Shown here: positions 6,889 to 51,258 of the stretch, one piece after another
How positions within the stretch are numbered: position 1 is the first letter of the stretch
Layout: the number at the start of each line of letters is the position of its first letter
NCBI GenBank assembly: GCA_026004935.1
Contig: BPKC01000001.1
Span: 682,001-746,000, forward strand
Reading direction: 5' to 3'
DNA: 64,000 bases
Origin: Rhodothalassiaceae bacterium
Lineage (GTDB): Bacteria; Pseudomonadota; Alphaproteobacteria; Sphingomonadales; Rhodothalassiaceae
Program-made: the position numbers and the translations under genes
Notes under the pieces: model-generated
Told to the model about the DNA's origin: nothing
Seen by the model: only the letters and a program-made list of their open reading frames with translations
Databases searched by the model: none

Positions 6889-8586
6889 ATGGCCGGAGGA
6901 GATGAGGCACCCGTGGATGCGGGCCTGTTCGACTACGTCATCGTCGGGGCCGGCTCGGCCGGGGCGGTGATCGCCGCCCGCCTGTCCGAGGACCCGGGCA
7001 ACCGCGTCCTGCTGCTCGAGGCCGGGCCCGCGGACCGCAGCCCCTTCTTTCACATGCCGCTCGGGTATGCGGAGACGCTGAAATCCACGCGCTACAACTG
7101 GCAGTTCCCGACGGCACCCGATCCCGGCACGGGCGGACGGGTCCACAAATGGCCCCGCGGCAAGGCCTTGGGCGGCTCGTCGTCCATCAACGCCATGATC
7201 TACATCCGCGGCAATCCCGGCGACTACGACACCTGGCGCCAGCTCGGCTGCGTCGGCTGGGGGGCGGAGGACGTGCTGCCCTATTTCAAGCGCGCGGAGG
7301 ATTACGAGCACGGGGCCGTGCCCGGCCACGGCGTCGGCGGGCCGCTGCCCGTGCGCGAGCCCGCCTATATCCATCCCTTCACGCCGGTGATCCTGGAGGC
7401 CTTCGAGCAGGCGGGGCTGCCGCGGCGCGCCGACTTCAACGTCGGCGACCAGGAGGGCGCGGGGCTGTGCCAGTTCACGATCGCCCGCGGGCGCCGCGCC
7501 TCCACGGCGCAGACCTATCTGAAGCAGGCGCGCGGCCGGCCCAATCTCGAGATCCGCACCGAGGCGCTCGCCGCACGCGTGGTGATCGAGGACGGGCGCG
7601 CGGTGGGCGTCGCGTATCTGCGCCGCGGCCGCCTCCACCTCGCCCGCGCACGCCGGGAGGTTATTCTCTCGGGCGGCGCCGTGAACTCGCCGCAGCTGCT
7701 GGAGCTGTCCGGCATCGGCGACGGTGCGCGGCTGAACGCGCTCGGCATACCGGTGGTGCGGCACCTGCCGGGTGTCGGCGAGAACCTGCAGGACCACTAC
7801 TCGGTCGGTCTGTCCTGGGCCCTCAAACCCGGCACGCCGTCCATCAACACCGACGTCCACGGCCTCGGCCTGCTGAAGGCGCTCGTGCGCTATCTGCTGC
7901 GCCGCGACGGGGTGATGGCGGTGGGGCCCGCGCACATCACCGCCTTCGCCCGCACACGGCCCGATCTCCTGTGGCCGGACGTCCAGTATCACGCGACCCC
8001 CGCCAGTCTCGACGCCGAGGCCTATCAGCGCAACGAGCTCGTCTTCCACAAGGAGCCGGGCGCGACGGTCGCGGTGTGCGTGCTCAGACCCGAATCCCGC
8101 GGCTCGATCCACGCGACAAGCGCGGATCCGACCGTCTATCCCGAGATCCTGCCCAACTACCTCGACGCCGAGTCCGACCGGATCGCGACCGTCGAAGGTC
8201 TCAAGCTCATCCGCCGCGTCTTCGCGACCCCGGCGATGCAACCCCACGTCGCCTTCGAACGCGAGCCCGGCGCGCTGGCGCAGACCGACGAGGAGCTGCT
8301 CGATCTCGCGCGCCGCATGGGCACCACCATCTACCATCCCGTCGGCACCTGCCGGATGGGCGCACCGGACGACGAGATGGCGGTGCTGACTCCCGACCTC
8401 AAGGTGAAAGGGGTGGAGGGGCTCAGGGTCGCCGACGCCTCGGTGATGCCGCGGCTCGTCTCCGGCAACACCAATGCCCCGGCGATCATGATCGGCGAGA
8501 AGGCGGCGGATCTGATCCTGGGGCGCGAGCCGCCGGCGGGTGAGCCCTGGCCCGAGGATCCGCGCCGGCGATCGCGGGCCGCCTGA
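6889..8586 (+). CDS. GMC-family FAD oxidoreductase (choline/alcohol dehydrogenase-like)
   Basis: Flavoprotein that oxidises an alcohol; the substrate cannot be told from sequence. Near the N-terminus the FAD-binding VIVGAGSAGAVIAARL is seen, with E of LLLEAGP closing the Rossmann fold. The two GMC signatures follow (GGSSSINAMIYIRGNPGDY and GGAVNSPQLLELSGIG). The C-terminal active-site region has YHPVGTCRMG and SGNTNAPAIMIGEKAA. The length is 565 residues. The ATG at 6889 is preceded by a strong GGGAGGAGG six bases upstream; the frame is open further upstream but without a ribosome site. It is transcribed divergently from rimP. No betaine-aldehyde dehydrogenase or betI is next to it, so a betaine role is not supported. 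Confidence 0.9.
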   Translation: MAGGDEAPVDAGLFDYVIVGAGSAGAVIAARLSEDPGNRVLLLEAGPADRSPFFHMPLGYAETLKSTRYNWQFPTAPDPGTGGRVHKWPRGKALGGSSSINAMIYIRGNPGDYDTWRQLGCVGWGAEDVLPYFKRAEDYEHGAVPGHGVGGPLPVREPAYIHPFTPVILEAFEQAGLPRRADFNVGDQEGAGLCQFTIARGRRASTAQTYLKQARGRPNLEIRTEALAARVVIEDGRAVGVAYLRRGRLHLARARREVILSGGAVNSPQLLELSGIGDGARLNALGIPVVRHLPGVGENLQDHYSVGLSWALKPGTPSINTDVHGLGLLKALVRYLLRRDGVMAVGPAHITAFARTRPDLLWPDVQYHATPASLDAEAYQRNELVFHKEPGATVAVCVLRPESRGSIHATSADPTVYPEILPNYLDAESDRIATVEGLKLIRRVFATPAMQPHVAFEREPGALAQTDEELLDLARRMGTTIYHPVGTCRMGAPDDEMAVLTPDLKVKGVEGLRVADASVMPRLVSGNTNAPAIMIGEKAADLILGREPPAGEPWPEDPRRRSRAA

Positions 8587-48597: not shown

Positions 48598-49785
48598 TCA
48601 GCGGCGGTCGTCCTCCCGCGTCCCAGCCTGATCGGCCGCCGCCATACGGCAGCGTTCGTCCGGGGTGGGCAGATCGTGCTCATGCCAGAATGCCTTCATG
48701 CGCTCCGGATCGGCGATGGGGGGTGATCCCACCCGCTCCCCGCGGGGACCGCAGCCGCCATAGGTGCCGTAGATCTGCTTACCGGCCTTCAGGAGTGCCA
48801 CCTGATCCTCATGGACGGCATAGGTCACCGGCGCGACACGGCCTTCGCGATAGGCGCGAACGACGGCATCGTGAAAGAAAAGGATGTCCTCCTCGTCAGC
48901 GCTGTGTCCGCCGATCAGACTGGCTGCGCCTTCGAGCACATACTCCGTGGTCACGCGCCACGGATCGTATCCGTCCTTTTCCATCAGCCGACGCAGCCAA
49001 CGCGTGTTCTCGTGCTTGATGATGGTATCGGTCAGGGCAAGAAGGCCGATACAGATGGGGGGCATCCGTTCACCCGTGGCGACGATGGGGGCGGTGCCAG
49101 CTTGGGAGATCTCCAGTTCCTGAGTCGCCTGATCCAGCGTCACCCGTACCACGAGCTCGGTATCGGGATTTCGGATCGGCATCTTCCATCGGAGGGGGTG
49201 TCGCGAAAACATGAGCGATTGGGCTGCGAAGGTCCGCCGCACCAGCTCGCGCAGGGACGAGCAGGTCTCAAGCAGATCATCGGGATCCCGACCGGCCAGA
49301 TGAACGCCTTTGTCCGTCAGGATATAGCTCACCATTGCCGTCTGAACGGACAGGCGGTTCTGCCCGCCGCTTGCCGAGCAGATGTAAACGAGAGACCGGA
49401 GGGAAAATCCGTTCTCTGTGCAGTCCGCGTCACATTTGCAGGCCTGTCGCACCGCCTCCTTGGACAGAGAGGGGCTGCGCACGAGGGCGGCCGCCGCCTG
49501 CTGGAGGGCGTTCTCGAATATCCGGGAAGGAGAGAGCCCACCGCTGGCAGGGCCGTGGGCGCTGGCCTTGAGGGGCAGGATCGGCGCTACGGACAAGAGG
49601 ATGAAGATGACGGAAGAGCGCAGGCCCTGCCGAAATGCTGCTCTGCCGGGCGGCGCGCCGGCACGAATGCGAGAACGGCAGCCGGCGACGGCGGGCTGCC
49701 TGCCTTCACACGCGGGACGCTTTGGCATCGGGCGACTCTTCGCAGCGTTCCGCATGGTCGTTTTCGCCGTCATTGTATCGTGCAT
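48598..49785 (-). CDS. DUF6624-like protein with N-terminal membrane/export segment, in the peptide locus
   Basis: 395 residues. A basic N-terminal region precedes a hydrophobic segment at about 57-73 (SSVIFILLSVAPILPL, then KASAHG), so the rest is probably exported or anchored outside. A Cys-rich patch (ACKCDADCTENG) follows. The C-terminal 130 residues resemble DUF6624: GGHSADEEDILFFHDAVVRA with conserved His/Asp, VTYAVHEDQVALLKAGKQIYGT, then PPIADPERMKAFWHEHDLP. The ATG at 49785 has GGGAGGGG seven bases upstream and overlaps the ligase gene by 80 bases. Function unknown; coupling suggests it acts on, matures or protects against the peptide product. Confidence 0.65.
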   Translation of the reverse strand: MHDTMTAKTTMRNAAKSRPMPKRPACEGRQPAVAGCRSRIRAGAPPGRAAFRQGLRSSVIFILLSVAPILPLKASAHGPASGGLSPSRIFENALQQAAAALVRSPSLSKEAVRQACKCDADCTENGFSLRSLVYICSASGGQNRLSVQTAMVSYILTDKGVHLAGRDPDDLLETCSSLRELVRRTFAAQSLMFSRHPLRWKMPIRNPDTELVVRVTLDQATQELEISQAGTAPIVATGERMPPICIGLLALTDTIIKHENTRWLRRLMEKDGYDPWRVTTEYVLEGAASLIGGHSADEEDILFFHDAVVRAYREGRVAPVTYAVHEDQVALLKAGKQIYGTYGGCGPRGERVGSPPIADPERMKAFWHEHDLPTPDERCRMAAADQAGTREDDRR

Positions 49786-50834
49786 GGTCCATCCCCTCCC
49801 TCTCCTCATGGCCGGTTGCCTGGTCCTGCAACAGCGACGCGATCTCGCGGGCGAGCATCCGCGCGATCGGGCCGTCCCAGTAGGGCTCGAGCCAGGCCCA
49901 TTGCCCCTCGCTGTTGCATTCGAGAAACCATGCGCGTCCCTGTCTGTCGACTGCGATATCGAACACGCCGCTGTGAAGACCGGCAAGCCGGAGATATGCA
50001 CATGCGGTGGACCGCAGATCGGCCGAAAGCGCCATCTTCCGGAAGATCGGCTCCATCTGCCCCCGGCGCCAGTCCAGCCTTCCGAGCCGGCTTCTCTGCG
50101 ATTCGATGCGGTAGCCGATGGCGGAATTTCCGCATGCTACGAGACGGATCTCGTAATCCTTATCAATCTCACGCTGGTATATGGATGGTGCTGCCGCAAG
50201 GCTTTTGCCCGGCGTGTCGCGAATTTCCGGATGGGACACGCGGTTCGTCATCAGAACGATCATGGAGGCCGAGCCATCCATCGCCGGTGGAACGAAATTC
50301 GTATGCAGAGGCTTGATGATCGTCGGCCCCCTTCTTGACGAATCCGCTGATCGTCCGTTTGTCGGAAGATATCAGTGTTTCCGGCACCAGAAACCCGGCT
50401 TTTTCCGCCGTCGCAAGCTGCAGCAATTTGAAGCGCTGCAGATGGGTGCTTATGATATCGTTGAAATGGATCAGATTGAAGGTGGTGATGACACCGAAAA
50501 TGAATGCGCCATTCTCCCGCGTGGAAAATAATCTGACCTGATCCTCATAGGTTTCAATTGTGTCCACAAAACGTTTGTTGCGGAACCAAATGGCCTTGAC
50601 GTCCTTTCCCAGTTCGATCCGCCGGACAGGAAACTTTGGTTCGTCATTCTTCCAGACGATCTCCCGGCCCCAGATGACAGGTCGGGAGATCTCGCCCGTT
50701 CGATACCGGCAGGCCGTTCGAACGTTCCCCCACGGATCGTAGATGAAGCTGCGGATTCCCTCTTTTTCAAGGGAATGGGCAACAAGGCGGATATGGGCGT
50801 CAGTGATGGCGCCGTATATGAGCAATCCAGCCAA
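49706..50834 (-). pseudogene. MvdC/MvdD/GwsG-like ATP-grasp peptide ligase (graspetide maturase), one-base frameshift
   Basis: Features in order: LLIYGAITDAHIRLVAHSLE; HLQRFKLLQLATAEKAGFLV; after the shift IIKPLHTNFV; YQREIDKDYEIRLVACG; DWRRG; GVFDIAVDRQGRAWFLECN; and SEGQWAWLEPYWDGPIA. The last two are the diagnostic C-terminal motif of the microviridin-type ATP-grasp ligases, which link Thr/Ser/Lys side chains to Asp/Glu in a precursor. The frame breaks in a G5 run (50331-50327). Removing one G joins both halves into 375 residues (KKGPTIIKPL). The start is probably the TTG at 50834 with AGGG seven bases upstream, 81 bases after the precursor stop; TTG 50825 or 50915 are alternatives. Mutation or assembly error cannot be separated here. 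Confidence 0.85.
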
Positions 50835-50915
50835 GAACGAACCCTGGGTATTTGCACAATACGTGACGAAGAGAGGCAGGCGTAGTTGACATGACGCCTG
50901 CCCCTCGACTCTCAA

Positions 50916-51182
50916 TCAGTTGAAGTCGACGCTAGGGTCATCCGCGAAGCATTTCCGTCGAACCGGCCAGACATCTACAGAATTTATATAACAAGTGGTC
51001 GTGTTCTGATTGCCGATTCCCGTGGGCGGTGTTCTGGGCGGCCGGCCGCCGCCTATTGCATCGCATTCCTGCTCGGTCAGCTCTCTGGCGATTTTCTCCT
51101 GGTCCGCCCGAAGGGCAAAAACATCCTCACGTTTAGAAAAGATGAATGGACGGTGCGCAGCGCCCTGCATTTCGTTTGCCAT
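50916..51182 (-). CDS. putative graspetide precursor peptide, 88 residues
   Basis: Starts at an ATG with GGGAGGG upstream. Residues 1-46 look like a leader: RPFIFSKREDVFALR (11-25), then ARELTEQECDAIGGG (32-46), the double-glycine form of bacteriocin-type leaders. Residues 47-60 are a Pro/Gly/Asn-rich linker. The core (61-88) has TTT at 61-63, C64, S68, D70, K77, C78, D81, D82, S84 and D86. Hydroxyl and amine donors and carboxyl acceptors are those used by ATP-grasp ligases. The gene comes first in the unit, followed by the ligase and the DUF6624 gene. It has no paralogue here. That it is a RiPP precursor is inferred from context and leader shape. Confidence 0.78.
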   Translation of the reverse strand: MANEMQGAAHRPFIFSKREDVFALRADQEKIARELTEQECDAIGGGRPPRTPPTGIGNQNTTTCYINSVDVWPVRRKCFADDPSVDFN

Positions 51183-51229
51183 GTTCCGGCCCTCCCGTCG
51201 GTACCTGCCGCCCACTTGCATGAAATCTC

Positions 51230-51258
51230 ATAGCAAAAAAGGGGGGGTGTCATGTCAA
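51230..51258 (-). promoter_or_regulatory. Candidate promoter of the peptide locus, spacer made of homopolymer runs
   Basis: On the minus strand a perfect TTGACA (51258-51253) is followed by 17 bases and TGCTAT (51235-51230). Most of the spacer is a run of seven C and six T. Slippage in such runs would change the -35/-10 distance and could switch the promoter on or off. The inferred start near 51222 leaves a leader of about 40 bases before the precursor ATG. The rest of the 424-base gap to the divergent S10 peptidase gene shows only that gene's GGGGAGGA ribosome site. Confidence 0.6.

Follow-up and report, generated by a model that had tools for sequence, protein, structure and literature searches.

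A graspetide-type locus with a frameshifted ligase and a divergent DUF6624-like partner in an alphaproteobacterial genome

Introduction

Proteins of the DUF6624 family have been reported at high frequency in the graspetide groups 18, 20, 23 and 42 in the main text of Carter et al. (2026, PMC13097080). In the main text of Makarova et al. (2022, PMC8939145), a family of secreted proteins or lipoproteins, termed cluster 23, has been placed among the three most abundant families in graspetide loci; it keeps a conserved His and a conserved Arg, and the graspetide leader motif has been given there as 'Phhx(1,2)h' plus GG. Going by these descriptions, cluster 23 probably corresponds to DUF6624, which is a frequent companion of graspetide loci.

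Here we describe a locus of this kind in a 64-kb stretch of DNA (the window, whose positions are used throughout) from a Rhodothalassiaceae bacterium. An earlier note on this DNA had taken the locus as probably new, naming no described group with this core and a DUF6624 partner. This argument fails against the groups 18, 20, 23 and 42 of Carter et al. (PMC13097080), and since the pairing has been published, the combination of ligase, precursor and DUF6624 protein is not new. With its three genes, the window locus is a genuine graspetide-type locus and one of three sister copies in its genome.

Results

Layout and setting of the locus

The cluster consists of three genes on the minus strand in the order precursor, ligase and DUF6624-like gene, an arrangement that the earlier note had read in the same way and that the minus-strand open reading frames bear out. 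The features are:

51253..51258, minus strand: TTGACA, a possible -35 box (from the sequence)
50916..51182, minus strand: graspetide-type precursor, 88 aa plus stop (ORF list, alignment, profile match)
50169..50915, minus strand: ligase ORF1, pre-ATP-grasp part (ORF list; NCBIfam TIGR04187/04184/04185)
50327..50331, minus strand: G5 homopolymer run (plus-strand C5) with a one-base frame change (alignment with intact paralogues)
49706..50326, minus strand: second part of the ligase (ORF2), ATP-grasp part, in another frame than ORF1 (TIGR04187, 2.8e-28)
48598..49785, minus strand: DUF6624-like protein, 376-395 aa (ORF list, hydropathy, profile comparison)

A gene for a biotin-dependent carboxylase subunit flanks the cluster on one side and one for an S10-type peptidase on the other; these two neighbours are plus-strand genes, and no exporter gene adjoins the cluster. 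Its GC3 is atypical, with 0.58-0.74 in the window locus and 0.37-0.70 in the homologues versus about 0.9 in the flanking genes. When an empty site was sought by flanking synteny, the S10 peptidase flank alone was found in relatives, and the neighbours there are not conserved.

Downstream of TTGACA, a C7T6 tract is followed by TATGAG at a spacing of 20 nt, which is not standard; no -10 element has been found at standard spacing from TTGACA (51258-51253), and a consensus promoter scan gave no match there, so that the single promoter read in the earlier note is a putative one.

Sister loci and ligase tree

Related loci have been sought by a contig scan with a profile of five ligases. The genome of the window (2.9 Mb, 2 contigs) holds six further MvdD-like ligase loci, and the triple of precursor, ligase and DUF6624-like gene, the co-occurrence of which the earlier note had suggested checking, recurs at two of them, L010 (2.75 Mb) and L012 (1.04 Mb), as well as in the same-genus MAG contig L031 (= L056, 'Alphaproteobacteria bacterium isolate J084'). 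When the few highest-ranking candidates of each genome were scored, a profile of the DUF6624-like proteins had exactly three matches in the own genome and none in 384 others sampled from the class. In the ligase tree, the four triple ligases (window, L010, L012 and L031) form one clade (support 96/92) with a Euryhalocaulis ligase, encoded beside a DUF6624-like gene, as the nearest sister (88/81), and the remaining ligase lineages of the own genome that were placed in the tree fall outside the four-ligase clade. The sister ligases are 41-44% identical to that of the window.

An upstream block, TGAACACNCNCNCYCTTGACG, with a poly-G tract behind it, is common to L010 (upstream of the precursor), L012 (5720-5775), the congener L031 (4440-4380) and a further graspetide locus, L011 (6455-6512), and is absent from the window promoter. 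In a genome scan allowing three mismatches, the other best matches lie within genes. The block is possibly the target of a common regulator or a phase-variable spacer.

The precursor

The precursor (51182-50916) has the sequence MANEMQGAAHRPFIFSKREDVFALRADQEKIARELTEQECDAIGGGRPPRTPPTGIGNQNTTTCYINSVDVWPVRRKCFADDPSVDFN, with a leader RPFIFSKRE...ELTEQECDAIGG and a core ...TTTCYINSVDVWPVRRKCFADDPSVDFN, so that a leader motif and a core rich in Thr/Ser plus Asp/Glu are found adjacent to the ligase. Invariant in the alignment of the four homologous precursors are P12, F13, K17, E19, R25, R33, L35, E39 and G45 on the leader side as well as P52, T62, C64, C78, D81, D82 and D86, and the last six of these make up a core pattern, T.C...C..DD...D, which is kept in all four. 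The leaders share the pattern PFI[F/L]xK[R/K]E, about 25 residues and then GG, and leaders of like shape occur in related loci of Sphingomonas (FLFSKNE...GG) and Euryhalocaulis (PFLFKKAE...GG).

No Pfam or NCBIfam model matches the precursor. When every one of the 1,014 stop-to-stop frames in the window was compared with a profile built from the other three precursors, the window precursor alone matched (E = 1e-15), in agreement with the 88-residue precursor proposed earlier. A profile of all four has exactly three matches in the genome, and next to each of them lie a ligase and a DUF6624-like gene. As judged from sequence comparison, this conservation of the precursor constitutes the strongest evidence for a graspetide locus.

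The split ligase

The start of ORF1 is uncertain (TTG 50915, or TTG 50834 going by homology); its homology stops at the G5 run, and the remainder is an out-of-frame read-on up to the stop at 50169. The second part carries the IIKP lysine, DYEIRL, DWRR, FDI.VD and FLECNSEGQWAWLE, and the first ATG of its frame (50281) comes after the conserved ATP-grasp lysine. By alignment with the intact paralogues, the frame change has been placed between FVKKG and PTIIKP. Because the ligase is split over two frames at the G5 run, neither half should work as a synthetase; an intact ligase frame is lacking in the window copy and present in L010, L012 and L031. The frameshift is a point absent from the earlier note, the claim of which has therefore held in part: the diagnostic C-terminal motif (FLECN..GQWAWLE) is found in the window ligase, but the enzyme is not encoded by a single open gene.

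For the window copy, decay is probable and mis-assembly the alternative, and with a frame-broken ligase, production from it is doubtful. A sequencing or assembly error, behind which the locus would be intact and working, has a real though less than even chance of being the cause, as the break sits at a homopolymer and involves a single base, and both halves retain coding-like composition and motifs and align without loss to the intact paralogues. Against it, the other frame breaks in the stretches examined lie in a second graspetide ligase (L011) and, twice, in an NHLP exporter operon (L147), those in L147 being away from long homopolymers, and a codon-usage scan of the rest of the 64-kb window, which is approximate and would miss atypical genes, has shown no clear break. 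Since the identified breaks all fall in peptide-pathway genes and none is clear elsewhere in the window, gene decay is favoured over random error. It is improbable that the split ligase is in use, with full-length enzyme made in part of the cells or at a certain rate through programmed frameshifting or through a homopolymer switch subject to phase variation; the run at the junction and the poly-G or C/T tracts in the presumed promoter spacers of the sister loci would suit such a use, but five bases make a short tract for phase variation, no slippery site is conserved in the sister ligases, which are intact, and the shift required is +1 instead of the common -1 kind, for which reason a programmed -1 frameshift has been rejected. 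The simplest reading of the window locus is that of a paralogue losing function.

Family of the ligase

Joined across the break, the window ligase matches TIGR04187 at 8.1e-46 and the MvdC and MvdD models at 8e-31 and 1.3e-30 (read-through: TIGR04185 8e-31, TIGR04184 1e-30), and the three intact homologues match TIGR04187 at 1.5e-50 to 6.5e-44 versus 6e-6 to 0.04 for RimK. None of these scores reaches the curated NCBIfam cut-offs, so that membership in the MvdC/MvdD/TIGR04187 kind of ATP-grasp ligases is at family level. Six PDB relatives have been obtained with the five-sequence ligase profile at E <= 0.01, namely CdnC, MdnC, AMdnB, MdnB, 9bou and the 7drm group (PsnB), where 5ig9 is MdnC, 5ig8 is MdnB and 7drm is PsnB; all of them are graspetide synthetases. 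The HMM comparison which the earlier note had called for thus groups the ligase with the MvdC/MvdD/TIGR04187 models and the solved graspetide synthetases, away from RimK, and the graspetide type of the locus is well supported at the level of sequence. That the ligase instead acts on another substrate as an enzyme of the RimK or glutathione-synthetase type, with an unrelated small ORF beside it, is highly improbable, as its weak matches to the GSH-S_ATP and YheC/D ATP-grasp models are surpassed by those to graspetide models and structures by tens of orders and the small ORF is kept beside each ligase copy. With the small ORF kept at the homologous loci and a ligase that is not RimK-like, neither of the two findings that the earlier note had set against its own proposal has arisen.

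The DUF6624-like protein

Candidate starts of the third gene are the ATG codons at 49785, 49773, 49755 and 49728, with 49785 (best Shine-Dalgarno) or 49728 preferred. All plausible starts precede the stop codon of the ligase (49706), and therefore the gene overlaps the 3' end of the ligase, as had been claimed, for every start from 49785 to 49728. The membrane or export segment noted earlier is borne out as well by an N-terminal hydrophobic, export-like stretch, SSVIFILLSVAPILPLKASAHG, and a maximum mean hydropathy of 1.88 over 19 residues.

Pfam and NCBIfam models have given no direct match to this protein, PF20329 (DUF6624) included, which stayed short of a match above the Pfam cut-off. Profile-profile comparison by hhalign of the four homologues with twelve canonical DUF6624 proteins, drawn from the same order, has yielded a probability of 97.6% (E = 2.8e-12) over 164 aligned columns, among them those of the conserved His and of the stretch A..xD...Q.YGT..C..G, so that homology with the conserved H, A..xD and QxYGT..C is seen at profile level; an HMM of the twelve members matches the window protein at 3.3e-5 and the L010 protein at 5e-10. 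Conserved among the DUF6624-like proteins are H275 and A..ED (numbering from 49728), and the usual DR pair of DUF6624 is here ED followed by a variable residue, the Arg not being kept. On the strength of the profile-profile and HMM matches, the designation 'DUF6624-like' in the earlier note is correct, in the sense of a remote homologue and divergent branch.

The structure predicted from the four sequences has a mean pLDDT of 48 and is confident at residues ~280-360 only; at this confidence, a search of the PDB for its fold gave no meaningful match, and a search by sequence gave no PDB relative of DUF6624.

Other graspetide and exporter loci

In the own genome, L011 (6400-8921; G000:C1 ~1.096-1.099 Mb) is a graspetide locus with the precursor MRPSFKPFGLSHQ...IRGGCTSRSPRTCGTTVVTPNGDGYDKAGDAD, a ligase in two frames that break near 7190 and, likewise, a distant DUF6624-like protein. 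L009 (6805-9053) holds tandem ligases with a precursor MIDARTQTLARRLARPLAEEEVARVSGG..., and at L013 (4935-7232) a secreted protein of the ChaN/Tiki type (PF04187, 3e-6) comes after the ligase; ChaN-type genes adjoin ligases also in Sphingomonas (L058) and Euryhalocaulis (L066). In L147 (2831-9001; G000:C1 ~1.308-1.314 Mb), an NHLP/NHLM bacteriocin export operon (TIGR03794, 03796, 03797), two frame breaks split the TIGR03796 and TIGR03797 proteins; this exporter at 1.31 Mb is decaying or mis-assembled. A second C39 exporter, which lies at 2.32 Mb and has 777 aa, is intact.

At L038 (5033-9520), a ligase and a PFIL...GG precursor lie beside two oxygenase-like proteins, by inspection a cupin/JmjC-like and a prolyl-4-hydroxylase-like one, and the locus resembles the SmaO/SmaX loci of group 18. 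At L039 (4677-6200) of a same-family genome (G005), a DUF6624-like protein follows a broken ligase near transposase-like sequence.

Discussion

Proposed route and meaning

Very probably, the locus is best explained as a member of a narrow subtype of graspetide loci in Alphaproteobacteria; in the window copy the ligase is frameshifted, so that a product would need a sister ligase in trans. In such a route, the ligase would bind the leader motif and activate the core Asp carboxylates D81, D82 and D86 with ATP, and ester rings would form between the activated Asp residues and the hydroxyls of Thr/Ser (T61-T63, S68), an assignment for which the conserved residues are the guide. Cleavage of the leader behind GG would fall to a C39 exporter that acts in trans from another site in the genome, the two core Cys may pair as a disulfide after export, and the DUF6624-like protein would act outside the cytoplasm as a putative partner, tailoring or immunity protein. 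The window copy would yield product only if a sister ligase, at 41-44% identity, acts in trans.

Somewhat more speculatively, the four loci may represent a graspetide subgroup in Alphaproteobacteria which is as yet undescribed, has a ring pattern of its own (T/S as donors, DD...D as acceptor set and a paired Cys) and needs the divergent exported DUF6624 partner for maturation or function, in a genome with six or seven graspetide loci which is losing some of them and one exporter operon by frameshifts; we consider this possible, short of likely. The four sister triples, of which all but that of the window have an intact ligase, form a small and well-defined clade and thereby a compact set for testing the role of DUF6624, and, with their conserved precursor cores, they suit the mapping of cross-linked residues. 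If it is real, the accumulation of frame breaks in genes of the peptide pathway would amount to graspetide loss in progress.

Comparison with known systems

The core pattern of these precursors has found no description in the main texts of the two surveys (PMC13097080, PMC8939145). With groups 18, 20, 23 and 42, as they are set out in the main text of Carter et al. (PMC13097080), the window locus shares a precursor, a graspetide synthetase and a DUF6624-family partner, and it may belong to one of them; groups 18, 20 and 23 use NHLM-type exporters according to the same text. In contrast to these groups, the window protein has no Pfam-level DUF6624 match, and the window core reads T.C...C..DD...D. 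The cluster 23 loci in the main text of Makarova et al. (PMC8939145) resemble it by a secreted auxiliary protein and a leader of the type 'Phhx(1,2)h' plus GG, here PFIF, but have been described there mainly in CPR bacteria and Bacteroides.

MdnB/MdnC, AMdnB and CdnC (PDB 5ig8, 5ig9, 7m4s, 7mgv) are alike in ligase family and in a leader with a PF.. motif, whereas, relative to the microviridin type, the window ligase falls below the equivalog cut-offs, the core is without a TxKxPSD-type motif and no acetyltransferase is present. Closer is the locus of Euryhalocaulis caribicus (L060), which has a PFLFKKxE...GG precursor, a secreted DUF6624-like protein and a ligase in sister position to the clade; it differs in its order of precursor, DUF6624 and ligase, in its core and in a ligase identity of 32%, and a C39 exporter adjoins it.
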